Shown here in pieces: positions 6,887 through 31,152 of a DNA stretch of 31,152 bases. The DNA comes from a virus. The stretch is from positions 1 to 31,152 of the IMG/VR virus record IMGVR_UViG_3300025151_000177, one strand, 5' to 3'. Positions within the stretch are counted from its first letter, which is position 1; each line of letters begins with the position of its first letter. The translations under genes were made by a program, and so were the position numbers. The notes under the pieces were generated by a model that was not told the origin of the DNA, made no database searches, and saw only the letters and a list, made by a program, of their open reading frames with translations.

Positions 6887-8163
6887 TGCACGAGCAGTGG
6901 AAGAAAAGAAAAATGTTCTCTAACAGAGAGCAAGGTATTATGTCTGGCCTTGATCCTGTACCCATGGTGCAAGGTGGCTACGTACCCTTTCCTGGTATGC
7001 AAGTGGGCGGTGTCGTCCCTCAACCACAGTTATTCGAAGAAGGTGATGCCGAAGTTAACGATGCACTAAATAGTCTGGCCAGCATCACTAAACCAGATGT
7101 CCCTGATATGCCAATGCCGAAGATAGAAGAAAAGGTAGAGGTCAAAGAAGAAGTAACGGAGGACCAAGGACCTAGTAACTTTAAAGCTGCTGTAGCAAAA
7201 CTTAAAGATACGTTTGTTAAAGAAATAGAAAACTATATTGAACAAGCTGGTGTAGAGAACATTGGCAGATATTTAAAAAGCATGAGCGTGGCTTATAACA
7301 ATGAGCTTAACAACTTACGCAAACAATTTAAGGTGGACAAAGTAGATACCGAAGATCAATTGTTTACCGAACAGTTTTTATCTGAATTTATGGCAGATAT
7401 TCCTGGCATGCAAAGTGGCGGAGTTGTATTAACTCAAGAACAACTGGATGAACTTTTTGGAGAAGGTAAGTTTCCTTTAAGTGAATGGAACAACTACAGT
7501 CCAGACATTCAAAAAATGTTATTAAGAAAAGCACAAATTGCAAAATTAGAACAAGATCAAGCCACGACTGGTTCGCAAATAGATTTGTCTAGACTTGAGG
7601 AGTTACAAGCAGAAAGAAGAGCATTAGCTCCCCAAGTGGGAAAAGCCGCTCGAGCAAACGTAGCTACGGTTGGGTCTCCTTCTGGAAGATACCTTGCTGG
7701 ACTAGCTGCAGGAAGAGCAGCAGAAACAGCAGCGTTGGATAAAGCTATAGGAAGCGAAATGGATATAGCAAAAGCCATACTTAATGCACAAGCAAGAGCA
7801 GGAACTCCTGTTGGAGGACTAGATATTGATTTTACAGCTAAAGAAGCAGAAGCTTTTTCTTTAGAAGATATAACAAGACAAGCAGATGAAAGAGAACGTC
7901 TACAAAAACAATGGGATGCAGCAATAAAAGCTGAGGAAGGAGATTTTGCTAAAGCTTTAATATTATTTATAGGTCAAACAGGTGGTAAGCTCCCTGTAGA
8001 GTATCAAGGCCAAATAAGAAAAATTCCTGGACTTAATAAAGATGGAGATCTATTAGAATATTATCTATATTTGCTAGGCTTGGAAGAAAACGGTCAGCCT
8101 TTGTCAAAAACGCAAATAAGAAAATCTCTTGAAAAATGGGCCACTTTTGAAGTAGCTTCTTAA
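6886..8163 (+). CDS. Putative virion protein with repeated GMQxGG motif
   Basis: This encodes 425 residues. It carries a short motif twice: PGMQVGGVV near residue 37 and PGMQSGGVV near residue 175. Between them lies an acidic, helical section (KIEEKVEVKEEVTEDQ) with coiled-coil character. A central Ala-rich helix (ARANVATVGSPSGRYLAGLA) and a charged C-terminal domain follow. The first residues MHEQWKKRKMFSNREQG are basic. It sits directly before the largest gene of the operon, separated by only six bases. I do not recognise a family; an internal virion protein ejected or cleaved during assembly would fit. Confidence 0.6.
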   Translation: MHEQWKKRKMFSNREQGIMSGLDPVPMVQGGYVPFPGMQVGGVVPQPQLFEEGDAEVNDALNSLASITKPDVPDMPMPKIEEKVEVKEEVTEDQGPSNFKAAVAKLKDTFVKEIENYIEQAGVENIGRYLKSMSVAYNNELNNLRKQFKVDKVDTEDQLFTEQFLSEFMADIPGMQSGGVVLTQEQLDELFGEGKFPLSEWNNYSPDIQKMLLRKAQIAKLEQDQATTGSQIDLSRLEELQAERRALAPQVGKAARANVATVGSPSGRYLAGLAAGRAAETAALDKAIGSEMDIAKAILNAQARAGTPVGGLDIDFTAKEAEAFSLEDITRQADERERLQKQWDAAIKAEEGDFAKALILFIGQTGGKLPVEYQGQIRKIPGLNKDGDLLEYYLYLLGLEENGQPLSKTQIRKSLEKWATFEVAS

Positions 8164-25845: not shown

Positions 25846-28800
25846 ATGGCATTCTTCGGTAAAGACATTACAGCAGCGGATTTAGCTGCGGGCAATCTAC
25901 AAGGTTCTGAAAAAGAAAAGTCAGAGTTTAGTAAAGCTTTGCGATTTGGCTTAGACCAGCCGACAGAGAATGTTGCAACAACGTTACGCGCACTAGGATT
26001 TGACACACAAGCAGATACTTTAAGTGGCTTAATAGATGCTCCTAAAGACTATGACTCAAAAGCAGCTCAGTTTGTAGGAGAGGAGGGAATGTACGACTTT
26101 AGTGCTTTGCCTTTAGCCGTGGTAGAACAAGCGGGGCAACTAGGCGGATCTTTATTATCTAGGGGTATTGGTGCAGGAGCAGGATTTGCGGTTGGTAATG
26201 TTCCTGGAGCAGTTATTGGTGGTTTACTTGGACCAGGATTATTTGAAGCGGTACAGATAGCAGGGCCAGTAGCATTGGAAAGGGCTAGGAATAACGGTAG
26301 GACAGAACCAGATACTTCTGATTGGGCAGCTGCTTTAGGCACAGCAACTTTTTCTGGGGTTTTAAATGCTATCGGTGCTAAAAACATTGGTAGGTTAAAC
26401 ACTACATTAGTTGGTTCAGGAGTGCGAGAAGGAAGCACAGAGTTCTTACAAGGACTCACCGAACAGTTTGGTAGCACAGCTGGTACAGACAAGGGATTAG
26501 AGTTAGATTTGAGACAAGCAGGTGGTGAAGGATTGATAGGTGGTGCTACAGGATTGGGAGCACAAGTTCCTTCTTCTACATTAGGCACAGCTCAGTCACT
26601 AGAAGACCTTAGACAGGACATAATAGGCGACAGCATAACAAATGCAATGTTTGACCAAACTACACCCGATCAAGCTGTAGAAGAAATGGGAGATCAATTA
26701 AGACTAACCCAAGCAGTTGAAAACATGGAGCGGTTTGAACAAGAAGCCGATCAGTATGACCCTGATAATCCAGGAACTTTTACCGATGAAAATGTCATCC
26801 AAGATTTTTTAGTTAACAACGATCAGTTTTTAGAAAATCAAATTCAAAGTCAATTTGGCGAACAGTTAACAAGCAATGAACAGTTTGATTTATTTGTAAA
26901 CGTGCAAGATTACATACGAGATCACTTTGAATTTTTTGATCCTAGAACAGACATCACGCCCCGTGACGCATTAAGGCAAATATCAGAAACTGTAAGACAA
27001 CAAGCAGGAGTTCTTTTAGATAGAGCTAATTTAGCAAAAGTAGAGTCGGGCACAGACCCACGTTATGTTGGGCCAGGGTCTATGAATATAAATCTTAACG
27101 CAAAAGAAGAGTTGTACGCTACACAACCACCTGTTCCTAATATTAATATGACTAACAGGCGAGGCATAACGTCTATAGAATCAGGTATCGATCCTAATTT
27201 TTTGACTCAATCTATTTTGATAGAAGACGGAATATTAGATCAACGTTTGCCGAAAGACCCTAACAAGGCTGTAAATCCTCAAGGGTTACTGCAAGAATTA
27301 GGCGTGAAAGAAACTAATAAAAATTGGTTTGAAACATCAAAAAGAGGAAACAAAAAAGTTGTTAGTGAAGTTGTAAACACAGAAATAGCTCCTTTCTTAA
27401 AAGCTAAAAAAGACGCAGGTGAAAAAGTTACTCGTGCAGAGATAGAAAACATACTTTACGATTCTTTAAACCGACATATATCTTTTTACGAAATGGGACA
27501 ATCAACTCAACATAACGGCGGCTTTACGTTTAAAAATGACGGATTAGCAGAGCTGTTTCCCGAAGTATCATTATCAGACCGATATTTTGAACTTTGGAAT
27601 CATTACGTTCCTTTGATACCAGAAGGCTCCGTTTTAGAAACTAGCCCTTATTTTAACCGTGACGGTAATGACAGTAATCATAGTCCTCATGGCGATGGTG
27701 CAAACATGTGGACACGTGGTTTTGAGGTTGAACATCCAGACGGATCAGGACCAGGAACATTGATTGCAGAAAATCAATCTAAACTTCATGGACACTCACA
27801 AGACCCAGGTAAACCTGATGAAATGTATTTTTCTTCAACGGGGATTGAAGAAGACACGTCTCAATTTGATGCTATAAAGAGAAGACAAGACGATTATGGT
27901 GAGGCTTACGAAGATTTTAGGATACAGGTTGATGATTCTAGTCTTTCAGGAAATATTGCCTCTCTTCTTTTAGAAGATCCTAGTCAGTATGGTCAGTACA
28001 GAGATGTTGCTCTTGTGCCTCTAGAACAAGAGTTAAGTTCAATATCTGATAAGTTTGCAAAAGAAACTAAACTGCTAAAAGAAAGACAAGTTAAAGAAAG
28101 TAACGATGCTTTTGTAGAAGCTATTGTTGAGTCTCAGCCTCTTGGAAACTTAGGTATATTGATAGATCAAAACCGTTTTCAAGAATTTATGGATCAACCC
28201 GCACAAGCCTTAGATGTGTTTGAGACGTTAGGGAAACAAAGAAGGAATAAATTTAATGAATACGTTCTTTTAAACCATGGTTTTAACCTTAGACTCGAGT
28301 CAGTGACTAATAGAAATTATGACCAAAGAACTTTTAGACCAATTAACAATAAAATAATTGATCTTGCCAACCAACCTGACAAAGAATTGGACCTTAAACA
28401 GACTACAGATAGAGTAGAATTAATATTAGATTACAGTCCTAAATTCGCTGAGAAATACGATACTTTCAATAGTTTGATTGCAGCGTCAGACAACTATCCT
28501 ACTGCTACAGAAATGAGAGAGTTAGAACAGTACGAAGCTAGAATGAGAAATACTAACAAAACAGTGTTTCCTGACTACCCCTTCAAAAACAATTACCCTG
28601 CGATGAACTTACGGAAAGTAATAACTAAAGCTTTAGACAAGGGCAATAACTACGTTTTCATAGGGACTATAGGCTCAGGAGGAGCTCCGCCATCTGTGTA
28701 CAGAGCCCAGAAAAAAGAAGCTGAAAATATTGCAGAAGTTATAGCCAGTTATAGGGGCGATTTAAAAGCAGACGATTTATTTAAAATGTTGCCAGATTCA

Positions 28801-28947
28801 GCAGATGTGCCAGGAGGCCCGTACTACGCATTAGACATAAGGCCGTTAAAACAGTTGATAGAAGCTAAAGTGTTTAAAGGATTCAAGGGTTACAAAGAAG
28901 GTGGTTTAATTATGAATTACGGTGATTATGGAAGGAGTTATATTTAA
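25846..28947 (+). CDS. Large ejection / polyvalent-type protein (1033 residues)
   Basis: This encodes 1033 residues. Residues about 75-160 are Gly/Ala-rich and hydrophobic (LGGSLLSRGIGAGAGFAV, VPGAVIGGLLGPGLFEAV). Then come SGVLNAIGAKNIGRL and REGSTEFLQGLTEQFGS, the layout also seen near the N-terminus of the 1799-residue virion protein. Near residue 640 GTLIAENQSKLHGHSQ recalls the EEIQSDxHQ motif, and at about 910-940 PFKNNYPAMNLRKVITKAL with GNNYVFIGTIG recalls its partner block, both from large polyvalent phage proteins. The end YKEGGLIMNYGDYGRSYI is a common marine-phage C-terminus. It may be injected with the DNA to act early in the host. The enzymatic role is not established. Confidence 0.6.
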   Translation: MAFFGKDITAADLAAGNLQGSEKEKSEFSKALRFGLDQPTENVATTLRALGFDTQADTLSGLIDAPKDYDSKAAQFVGEEGMYDFSALPLAVVEQAGQLGGSLLSRGIGAGAGFAVGNVPGAVIGGLLGPGLFEAVQIAGPVALERARNNGRTEPDTSDWAAALGTATFSGVLNAIGAKNIGRLNTTLVGSGVREGSTEFLQGLTEQFGSTAGTDKGLELDLRQAGGEGLIGGATGLGAQVPSSTLGTAQSLEDLRQDIIGDSITNAMFDQTTPDQAVEEMGDQLRLTQAVENMERFEQEADQYDPDNPGTFTDENVIQDFLVNNDQFLENQIQSQFGEQLTSNEQFDLFVNVQDYIRDHFEFFDPRTDITPRDALRQISETVRQQAGVLLDRANLAKVESGTDPRYVGPGSMNINLNAKEELYATQPPVPNINMTNRRGITSIESGIDPNFLTQSILIEDGILDQRLPKDPNKAVNPQGLLQELGVKETNKNWFETSKRGNKKVVSEVVNTEIAPFLKAKKDAGEKVTRAEIENILYDSLNRHISFYEMGQSTQHNGGFTFKNDGLAELFPEVSLSDRYFELWNHYVPLIPEGSVLETSPYFNRDGNDSNHSPHGDGANMWTRGFEVEHPDGSGPGTLIAENQSKLHGHSQDPGKPDEMYFSSTGIEEDTSQFDAIKRRQDDYGEAYEDFRIQVDDSSLSGNIASLLLEDPSQYGQYRDVALVPLEQELSSISDKFAKETKLLKERQVKESNDAFVEAIVESQPLGNLGILIDQNRFQEFMDQPAQALDVFETLGKQRRNKFNEYVLLNHGFNLRLESVTNRNYDQRTFRPINNKIIDLANQPDKELDLKQTTDRVELILDYSPKFAEKYDTFNSLIAASDNYPTATEMRELEQYEARMRNTNKTVFPDYPFKNNYPAMNLRKVITKALDKGNNYVFIGTIGSGGAPPSVYRAQKKEAENIAEVIASYRGDLKADDLFKMLPDSADVPGGPYYALDIRPLKQLIEAKVFKGFKGYKEGGLIMNYGDYGRSYI

Positions 28948-29366
28948 TGTATGAATACAATTGCACAGTTGAAAAGGTGGTCGACGGAGATACTATCGAC
29001 GTTGTTTTGGATCTTGGGTTTGACATTCTTTACAAGTCTCGTGTTCGCTTATTTGGCATTGATACTCCCGAGTCACGTACTCGTAACAAAGATGAGAAGG
29101 CTAGAGGAAAAATGGCTGGGGCTTTTCTAGAAGAAGCTATCGAGGACGGAGAGAAAATAGTTATACAAACAAAGCTCAAGGACTCCAGAGGTAAGTTTGG
29201 CAGAGTTTTGGGGGATGTTGTTGTAGATGGCATAAATATCAATCAGCTCATGGTTAAATGCCATTTGGCAGTGGCCTATCATGGCCAGTCGAAAGACGAC
29301 GTAGAAGCCGAACACATGCGCAACAGAGACATTCTCATTGAAAAAGGTTTGTTCGAACCAGTATAA
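28947..29366 (+). CDS. Thermonuclease (staphylococcal nuclease-like)
   Basis: This encodes 139 residues, a single SNase domain. VVDGDTIDV supplies Asp15. VRLFGIDTPESR supplies Arg34, Asp39 and Glu42, and KFGRVLGDV supplies Arg86. These match the staphylococcal nuclease positions Asp21, Arg35, Asp40, Glu43 and Arg87, so the active site is complete for Ca-dependent cleavage of DNA and RNA. There is no signal peptide, so it acts in the cytoplasm, probably in host DNA turnover. The start overlaps the preceding stop (TAATG). It is the last protein gene before the structured stretch and terminator at 29405-29634. Confidence 0.93.
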   Translation: MYEYNCTVEKVVDGDTIDVVLDLGFDILYKSRVRLFGIDTPESRTRNKDEKARGKMAGAFLEEAIEDGEKIVIQTKLKDSRGKFGRVLGDVVVDGININQLMVKCHLAVAYHGQSKDDVEAEHMRNRDILIEKGLFEPV

Positions 29367-29404
29367 ATACCTATACATATCCCATAGCCTGAAGTAGAAT
29401 ACAT

Positions 29405-29516
29405 CCACGCTGTAGATTTTTAGCCCAGCTGGATGGGGAGCAGCGTGAGGTTATCTAAAACCTTGAAATCCAGAGAGTGCCAGCAGACGGTGTGCTCCAT
29501 AAAGATAACATCTGCA
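29405..29516 (+). ncRNA. Candidate structured RNA in a 3' untranslated region
   Basis: The 284 bases between the thermonuclease stop and the next start hold no convincing gene but several nested stems. CACGCTG (29406-29412) pairs with CAGCGTG (29441-29447) and encloses CCCA/TGGG (29424-29427 with 29434-29437). GTTATCT (29450-29456) pairs with AGATAAC (29503-29509) and encloses GAGTGC/GTGCTC (29475-29480 with 29492-29497, two G-U pairs). The inner-loop bases GCAGA (29483-29487) can pair with TCTGC (29511-29515) as a pseudoknot. It matches no RNA family I can name. It lies upstream of a terminator, so it should be the 3' end of the long plus-strand transcript. Confidence 0.5.
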
Positions 29517-29600
29517 GGAAGAGCTGTTCGAGCCAAAACGTTTTAATTTCATCTTAAAACCTCCAGCCCAGTGATCTTCCGATTAAATAATATTGACAGA

Positions 29601-29634
29601 AGGTCTGGTCTCCTAAAGTCCCAGGCCTTTTGTT
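29601..29634 (+). terminator. Rho-independent terminator after the curli/thermonuclease operon
   Basis: AGGTCTGG (29601-29608) pairs with CCAGGCCT (29621-29628) through 8 base pairs, one of them G-U, with a 12-base loop. The stem runs into TTTTGTT. It closes the transcript that should begin at the promoter near 20957. Confidence 0.75.
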
Positions 29635-29650
29635 ACACTAGGAAACTAAT

Positions 29651-29794
29651 ATGCCTAACAAATACAATGACCTATATAAATTACGTGCTAACACCGACAA
29701 AAACGGAGGTTCTATTGCCGTACGAGTGCCTACAAATCTTTTAGATAAAAACTCTAGAATCTACAGAAGACTAAAGAAAAAAGGAAAGATTTAA
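29651..29794 (+). CDS. Small basic protein (47 residues)
   Basis: ATG at 29651 opens 47 residues, with a core IAVRVPTNLLDKNSRIYRRL and the end KKKGKI. The stop overlaps the next ATG (TAATG), which supports coupled translation, and GGAAAC stands a few bases upstream as a weak ribosome binding site. The strand-then-helix look of VRVPTNLLDKNSRIYRRL is faintly like a DNA-binding ribbon-helix protein, but it is too short to claim. Function unknown. Confidence 0.55.
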   Translation: MPNKYNDLYKLRANTDKNGGSIAVRVPTNLLDKNSRIYRRLKKKGKI

Positions 29795-30060
29795 TGAAAA
29801 TAAAGAAAGGAACAATAATCGCTGACGTTTACGAACAATGCAGTCCCGAAATGAAAGAATGGTTTGATAACGCGGGACCCGAAGAACACGCTATGTTGCT
29901 CGAAGGACTGGTAGAGCACAACCTCATACCTCAAGAAATGTACGACCTGATGAAGGAAGTTATATTGGAGTACGATGGACAAATGACTCCAGAGCACTAC
30001 GCTGACTTTCTTGCCATGTGGTACAGCCCCTCTTTCAAAAAGAACTTTCAATTGCACTAA
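29794..30060 (+). CDS. Small acidic helical protein, function unknown
   Basis: This encodes 88 residues, acidic and predicted helical (EQCSPEMKEWFDNAGPEEHA, MLLEGLVEHNLIPQEMYDLM). The end MTPEHYADFLAMWYSPSFKK is rich in aromatics. It has no signal, membrane or catalytic motif. AAGGAAAG precedes the start, which overlaps the preceding stop. I do not recognise the family; its place between a terminator and structural-type genes gives no firm hint. An antisense frame across the same bases is a shadow. Confidence 0.65.
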   Translation: MKIKKGTIIADVYEQCSPEMKEWFDNAGPEEHAMLLEGLVEHNLIPQEMYDLMKEVILEYDGQMTPEHYADFLAMWYSPSFKKNFQLH

Positions 30061-30755: not shown

Positions 30756-30876
30756 AGGATCCAAGCCAAGACCTCTATCAATATCTCCTGAAAAGTTCAG
30801 CGATAACTGGGATAAGATCTTCAATCGACGTAAAAAACCTTTAAGCGGTAGCCTGTCGGGTAAAGATACTGTATAA
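30748..30876 (+). CDS. Small conserved phage protein, MGKGSKPRP...NWDKIF type
   Basis: This encodes 42 residues: MGKGSKPRPLSISPEKFSDN is followed by WDKIFNRRKKPLSG. The opening GKGS-x-RP and the block F-x-DNWDKIF make up a short protein that I recognise from very many T7-like and marine podoviruses, where it has no assigned function. It begins 8 bases before the end of the previous gene, so it is probably coupled. It is the last plus-strand gene before a strong terminator. The gene call is firm because of the conserved pattern. Confidence 0.75.
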   Translation: MGKGSKPRPLSISPEKFSDNWDKIFNRRKKPLSGSLSGKDTV

Positions 30877-30885
30877 TACATCTTA

Positions 30886-30935
30886 TATAAATCACCTCTT
30901 GGTGTTTATACGTTACACACTGTTTGCCTAGTGTG
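30886..30935 (+). repeat. Two small hairpins in the intergenic stretch
   Basis: TATAAA-T-CACC (30886-30896) pairs with GGTGTTTATA (30901-30910), giving 10 pairs with one bulged T and a TCTT loop. CACACT (30916-30921) pairs with AGTGTG (30930-30935). They follow the last plus-strand stop and precede the strong terminator. They could protect the transcript 3' end; nothing else is visible between 30877 and 30968. Confidence 0.5.
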
Positions 30936-30968
30936 ACCATTGAAAGGCTTAGTTTCACAAAACTATTA

Positions 30969-31005
30969 AAGGGAAGACTTTGTTTAAGTGGTCTTCCCTT
31001 TTTTT
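30969..31005 (+). terminator. Strong Rho-independent terminator
   Basis: AAGGGAAGAC (30969-30978) pairs perfectly with GTCTTCCCTT (30991-31000) around a 12-base loop and runs into TTTTT. It separates the plus-strand gene at 30748-30876 from the converging minus-strand gene that ends at 31046. The minus strand has CCCTTTAATAG behind the same stem, so it may stop transcription both ways. Confidence 0.88.
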
Positions 31006-31017
31006 GTGGACGAGGGA

Positions 31018-31047
31018 CCAAGGACTCGGAACGACGGCCCAAGGACT
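31018..31047. repeat. Direct repeat CCAAGGACT, 21 bases apart
   Basis: CCAAGGACT occurs at 31018-31026 and 31039-31047. The start-to-start distance of 21 bases is two turns of the helix, which would place both copies on one face of the DNA. It lies just after the terminator and touches the stop of the converging gene. It may be a protein-binding site or chance. Confidence 0.4.
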
Positions 31048-31152
31048 ATTCTTCTATTAAGGTGAATAGTTTTTGATAACTCCTTATAGTTATCAATTCT
31101 CCTGCATGCCAGCGTTTCAAAGTTCTAAAATCACAAACTTTTCCCGATAACA
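31046..31152 (-). CDS. 3' end of a minus-strand gene, possible small DNA-binding protein (partial)
   Basis: On the minus strand an open frame runs from the window edge to a TAG at 31048-31046. The 34 residues visible begin LSGKVCDFRTLKRWHAGELI and end RSYQKLFTLIEE. The Arg/Lys/Trp pattern (RTLKRW) with a terminal helix recalls the C-termini of small helix-turn-helix-like proteins common in marine phages; this is a weak recall. It converges on the plus-strand gene at 30748-30876 across the terminator. The frame contains a perfect 9-bp inverted repeat, TTGATAACT/AGTTATCAA, at 31073-31096. Confidence 0.5.
   Translation of the reverse strand, partial: LSGKVCDFRTLKRWHAGELITIRSYQKLFTLIEE

Follow-up and report, generated by a model that had tools for sequence, protein, structure and literature searches.

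We describe here a structured RNA of about 175 to 190 nt, located at about positions 29407 to 29580 of a viral record of 31,152 bases with a GC content of 40% (the whole stretch of DNA analyzed, referred to as the window), which folds into seven helices and two pseudoknots, each formed between a loop and a downstream segment. The reading that we favor, with a probability of roughly one in two, is that a short operon containing an acidic ORF has this RNA as its 5' leader, which would act like a riboswitch or an attenuator. The RNA represents a new family, absent from Rfam and with a fold backed by covariation, in phages related to those of the HTVC023P type. HTVC023P-type marine phages are abundant, and to our knowledge few structured RNAs of lytic phages have been described; those that are known, put RNA and riboswitch leaders among them, have revealed the timing of phage gene expression. 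With a secondary structure, a covariance model, and a linked gene available, direct probing, ligand screens, and reporter tests of this RNA become feasible.

Phage affiliation and the gap behind the nuclease gene

The polymerases closest to that of the window, at about 50 to 54% identity, are those of HTVC023P-type pelagiphages and phage DSL-LC04. The window also encodes a CsgF protein and an adjoining FecR domain protein; this pair corresponds to the curli (type VIII secretion) cluster that has been described from phages of the HTVC023P type (PMC9599517). Inside the curli module of a related locus (L009, positions 188 to 1930), we noticed a 580-aa adenylate-cyclase/CHASE2-like protein; it matches the adenylate cyclase that HTVC023P-type phages are reported to encode. 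Directly 5' of the RNA lies a plus-strand ORF of 139 aa (28947-29366) for a thermonuclease-like endonuclease (PHROG 452; E value, 5.6e-39), which has 376 relatives in viral contigs and whose nearest named relatives were found in methylophage Melnitz. The 1033-aa ORF 5' of the nuclease gene (25846-28947) matches N4-type virion RNA polymerase (PHROG 2206; E value, 1e-7) only locally, over residues 172 to 306, and is probably not a polymerase.

The nuclease stop codon (29366) is separated from the next ORF (29651) by 284 nt (29367-29650), which, as the preliminary description had stated, form the longest unassigned gap in the window, the second longest being 276 nt (30877-31152). Conserved coding within the 284-nt gap was ruled out, as the copies described below share no common frame and differ by indels that are not in threes; a 37-codon ATG frame in the window is likewise not conserved among them. 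A search of the gap against Rfam 15, which the preliminary description had proposed, returned no family at the gathering score and none worth keeping at an E value of ≤10, the best subthreshold match being Thr_leader on the terminator hairpin (18.7 bits versus the 55 needed). No tRNAs were present in the window, and neither ARAGORN nor Rfam detected a tmRNA or tRNA-like RNA. These results rule out a known RNA family, a tRNA, or a tmRNA and are in keeping with an uncatalogued structured RNA.

A second noncoding element was observed at 30873-31010. It comprises an extended -10 sequence (TGTATAAT), a hairpin around ACACACTGTTTGCCTAGTGTG, and a strong terminator (GGGAAGAC..GTCTTCCCTTTTTTT), and it precedes the terminase small subunit gene (L009, positions 7302 to 7838). 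Many relatives have a conserved form of this element, among them phages without the pseudoknotted RNA, and in L014, L023, and L026 it is present in two tandem copies.

Fold, strand, and distribution of the RNA

With the nuclease as the query, 80 viral loci were compared, and 16 of them carry a similar element right after the nuclease stop codon. As L018 and L027 are identical in this region, these loci hold 15 distinct RNA sequences, which together with the window gave 16 distinct full-length copies. On their alignment (A5), we proposed helices P1 to P7 and the pseudoknots PK1 and PK2, all on the plus strand. P1 (29407-29413/29440-29446) encloses P2 (29424-29426/29435-29437), the pair spanning 29407 to 29446, with two-sided changes at A5 columns 10-40, 11-39, and 25-34. 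In PK1 (29429-29473), the P2 loop CTGGA (29429-29433) pairs with TCCAG (29469-29473); the segments can pair in 16/16 copies, two of which have one G-C pair changed to G-U, and this pseudoknot is backed by conservation, not covariation. P3 is a short AGG/CCT hairpin (29448-29463); in L030, its loop holds an additional 17 nt of self-complementary sequence, which lengthen the hairpin. P4 (GAGTGC/GTGCTC; 29475-29497) is 100% paired and includes three variable pairs in which G-U, G-C, and A-U interchange. In PK2 (29483-29515), the P4 loop GCAGA (29483-29487) is matched by TCTGC (29511-29515), and the pairing covaries, with A-U in 12 copies and G-C in 4, a change seen on both of the trees used below. 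P5 (29517-29522/29575-29580) has three pairs with two-sided changes, P6 (29523-29526/29564-29567) is invariant, with some doubt over its exact partner, and the variable hairpin P7 (29540-29545/29555-29560) has six pairs with two-sided changes. An invariant TTCGAGC motif (29527-29533) is located between the 5' strand of P6 and P7, and the unpaired bases of the RNA are mostly invariant across copies.

Several measures support this fold. In A5, 96.9% of 764 cells are standard pairs, compared with 33 to 49% when the 3' partners were slid, and two-sided changes occur in 13 pairs among the 16 copies, compared with 0 to 3 in the slid versions; covariation thus backs P1, P2, P4, P5, and P7. We also applied a phylogeny-aware test, in which changes in paired columns that fall on the same branch were counted and compared with 2,000 randomizations. 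Co-occurring changes numbered 24 on the tree of the adjacent nuclease (6.8 expected) and 12 on the RNA's own tree (3.0 expected), and on either tree 0/2,000 randomizations gave a count as high. The compensatory changes therefore exceed those expected from phylogeny and chance, as for structured RNAs with a conserved secondary structure. The preliminary description had named a folding energy no better than that of shuffled sequence as grounds for refutation, and here the outcome was divided: the consensus passed (alifold z score, -4.1; 0/200 column shuffles as good), whereas the minimum free energy of the single window sequence was not significant (z score, -1.41; 16/200 shuffles equally low), and the mean single-sequence z score over the 16 copies was -0.3. 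Single-sequence folding (z score, -1.4 for the window) was accordingly discarded as evidence of structure, and it is because of the covariation in the 16 copies, not the fold energy of one sequence, that we consider the RNA to be structured. The suggestion of a functional structured RNA in the preliminary description is thus strongly supported by covariation in related phages (16 copies), and its account of two multipart stems, a possible pseudoknot, and a terminator was correct but understated, given seven helices, two pseudoknots, and a terminator-like hairpin with a z score of -3.1.

Outside P7, the alignment holds 53 G-U cells and 2 A-C cells. The RNA is therefore encoded on the plus strand, and a minus-strand RNA was ruled out by the same counts. 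With a mean identity of 87.9%, compared with 75.8% at the third codon positions of the nuclease gene, the RNA is better conserved than these positions and hence is under selection.

A DNA pattern scan of viral contigs identified 17 contigs, one of which is a fragment outside the nuclease-fetched set, and two further DNA patterns retrieved no viral contigs beyond the known carriers. The RNA copies all belong to a single clade of phages. The other nuclease relatives among the 80 loci are without the RNA, and other genes start straight after their nuclease genes. The covariance model found no match in the HTVC023P, DSL-LC04, and 023Pt_psg01 segments, in the remaining nuclease loci, in 80 bacterial loci, or, under strict filters, in 274 genomes sampled from the class to which one marine gammaproteobacterium belongs; a loose DNA pattern run on bacterial genome contigs gave chance matches.

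Borders, linked genes, and possible functions

A promoter-like block (29371-29400, plus strand) lies directly 5' of P1. In alignment A1, CTATACATATCCCATA is invariant in 16/16 copies and is followed by a variable spacer and a -10-like TARAAT (29395-29400); the window reads TATACA-17-TAGAAT, and the family form is TATACA-17-TARAAT. The block is unique in the window, and its match to the promoter consensus (9/12) is by itself not above chance. From its sequence, we infer a promoter before P1, and a start 6 to 8 nt past the -10 element would fall at P1. The preliminary description had placed the RNA at the 3' end of the curli/thermonuclease transcript; given this block, it is better regarded as the start of the next one. 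The same evidence bears on the idea, also put forward there, that the RNA is a structured 3' untranslated region that shields the end of the nuclease mRNA from exonucleases. While the RNA does come right after the nuclease stop codon and is next to a terminator in 9/16 copies, the conserved promoter-like block separates that stop codon from P1, 7/16 copies are terminatorless, and the RNA is absent from most nuclease relatives and tied to the downstream gene instead. Moreover, the many invariant unpaired bases are more than end protection needs, for which a simple stem would suffice. We therefore consider such a role very improbable.

At the other border, an intrinsic-terminator-like hairpin (29598-29631, plus strand; -15.0 kcal/mol; z score, -3.1) is followed by the U-rich tail UUUUGUU (29628-29634, plus strand). 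Hairpins of this kind, with a short U tract and folding energies between about -15 and -20 kcal/mol, are found in 9/16 distinct copies. The other 7/16 are without a terminator, and in these the next start codon lies 11 to 19 nt past the last helix, P5. As this leaves no room for another promoter in between, the RNA in these seven copies is necessarily a leader of the downstream gene. Terminator presence changed state 4 to 5 times on the trees, so that the role of the RNA is independent of the terminator.

The gene that characterizes the downstream region is a plus-strand ORF of 88 aa in the window (29794-30060) encoding an acidic protein. This ORF, of 88 to 96 aa, is always 3' of the RNA, and none of the RNA-bearing loci long enough to include this position is without it. 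Conversely, a profile search of viral contigs with the acidic ORF returned 18 contigs, 17 of them with the RNA; the eighteenth starts about 30 nt before the ORF, where the presence of the RNA cannot be judged, so that 17/17 testable contigs show the linkage. Because a single phage clade accounts for all the copies, this linkage is partly a matter of descent. The protein is modeled as all-alpha (pLDDT, 84.6) and has no significant fold match and no match to the ToxN/CptN/TenpN, Pfam, or PADLOC families. A 47-aa basic ORF (MPNKYNDLYKLRANTDKNGG...; 29651-29794, plus strand) lies between the RNA and the acidic ORF in four RNA-bearing loci only (the window, L001, L021, and L026). A block of 659 bp, consisting of the RNA, the 47-aa ORF, and the acidic ORF, is present in L021 and absent from L017, and the two loci can be aligned to either side of it. 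L017, L019, and L020 share with L021 both the nuclease gene and the gene that follows downstream, and none of the three has this block. The RNA and ORF thus form a cassette of about 0.66 kb that is cleanly present or absent between related phages. Between the window and L024, the RNA is 93.5% identical and the first and second codon positions of the acidic ORF are only 68% identical, which suggests that the RNA is not tightly coevolving with the protein.

These findings have to be weighed against the main rival of the leader reading, namely, a stand-alone phage small RNA that acts in trans on host or phage RNA or protein, its neighbors being passengers of the cassette. The preliminary description had likewise raised a released small RNA acting on host transcripts, and the promoter-like block and terminator could indeed, in 9/16 copies, mark off a separate RNA of about 225 nt; the conservation of the RNA while the adjoining ORF diverges would also fit. 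In 7/16 copies, however, there is no terminator and the ORF is reached after 11 to 19 nt, the terminator state has changed repeatedly, the strict tie to the acidic ORF favors action in cis, and no target was identified; when phage start regions were scanned for duplexes, nothing emerged but a trivial overlap with the RNA's own terminator. We thus consider a trans-acting RNA unlikely, if still worth keeping in mind.

A leader that acts in cis accounts for the observations most economically, because the RNA is necessarily a leader in 7/16 copies, is always linked to the gene, and is gained and lost with it; its location is consistently 5' of the acidic-ORF operon. Transcription would start at the RNA's own promoter just past the nuclease gene, and a short operon, with the gene for the small acidic all-helical protein as its characteristic member, would have the RNA as its 5' leader. 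The compact fold may sense something during infection, such as a metabolite, an ion, a host or phage protein, or possibly the acidic protein itself, and thereby set the output of the downstream genes, in the manner of a riboswitch or of a leader that responds to a protein. In the nine copies with a terminator-like hairpin, control could be exerted by read-through, the terminator serving as an optional attenuator, and in the seven terminatorless copies by ribosome access to the start codon 11 to 19 nt past P5. Several observations speak against such a leader: no alternative pairing of the RNA with the terminator or start region was found (an antiterminator was judged by eye), formation of the terminator hairpin is compatible with the RNA fold, the start codon region is unsequestered in simple folds of most copies, and the protein diverges more than the RNA. 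A more tentative view is that the RNA, as a phage-specific sensor or effector class with a new two-pseudoknot fold, constitutes with the acidic protein a mobile regulatory or host takeover cassette that is swapped between the nuclease and late genes of marine phages.

Comparison with known systems

HK022 put and EAR resemble the present RNA in being structured and lying near a promoter, either in a phage or in the leader of an operon. A promoter-proximal RNA that modifies RNA polymerase for terminator read-through would be in line with the nearby terminator-like hairpin and with the strong one at 30970-31005 ahead of the terminase small subunit gene. However, the present RNA differs from both in size, fold, and gene context, being far larger than put (about 70 nt with two stem-loops; PMC9378689) and folded differently, the operon that follows extends for only about 2 kb, and neither EAR nor any other Rfam family was matched. 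Antitermination of this kind therefore seems improbable.

With ToxI, CptI, and TenpI, the RNAs of type III toxin-antitoxin systems, the present RNA shares the order of promoter, pseudoknotted RNA, terminator (here in 9/16 copies), and gene for a small, in that case RNA-bound, protein (PMC5086642), and the RNA and ORF always occur together and are gained or lost as one block. However, the RNA is single and nonrepetitive, without tandem or direct repeats, and the acidic all-alpha protein is unrelated to the ToxN/CptN/TenpN-type endoribonuclease toxins, so that two defining features of type III systems are missing; in addition, 7/16 copies are without a terminator. A type III-like module is thus a decidedly poor prospect.

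Closer to the 5' leader that we favor are the manA, wcaG, and PhotoRC-II RNAs of marine metagenomes and cyanophages, which are likewise phage-borne structured RNAs located 5' of genes and found by covariation. They have no sequence or covariance-model match to the present RNA and adjoin metabolic genes, whereas the present RNA adjoins one small acidic ORF. Methylophage Melnitz and pelagiphage Mosig carry the glutamine riboswitch (glnA RNA), which, like the present RNA, is of the leader type and belongs to curli-bearing phages whose hosts are streamlined marine bacteria. That riboswitch is a small, well-modeled Rfam family, which was not detected here, whereas the present RNA measures about 180 nt and has two pseudoknots. 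Taken together, the glutamine riboswitches and the manA, wcaG, and PhotoRC-II leaders carried by marine phages and cyanophages (PMC9004378, PMC2864571) provide a precedent for reading the present RNA as a leader.
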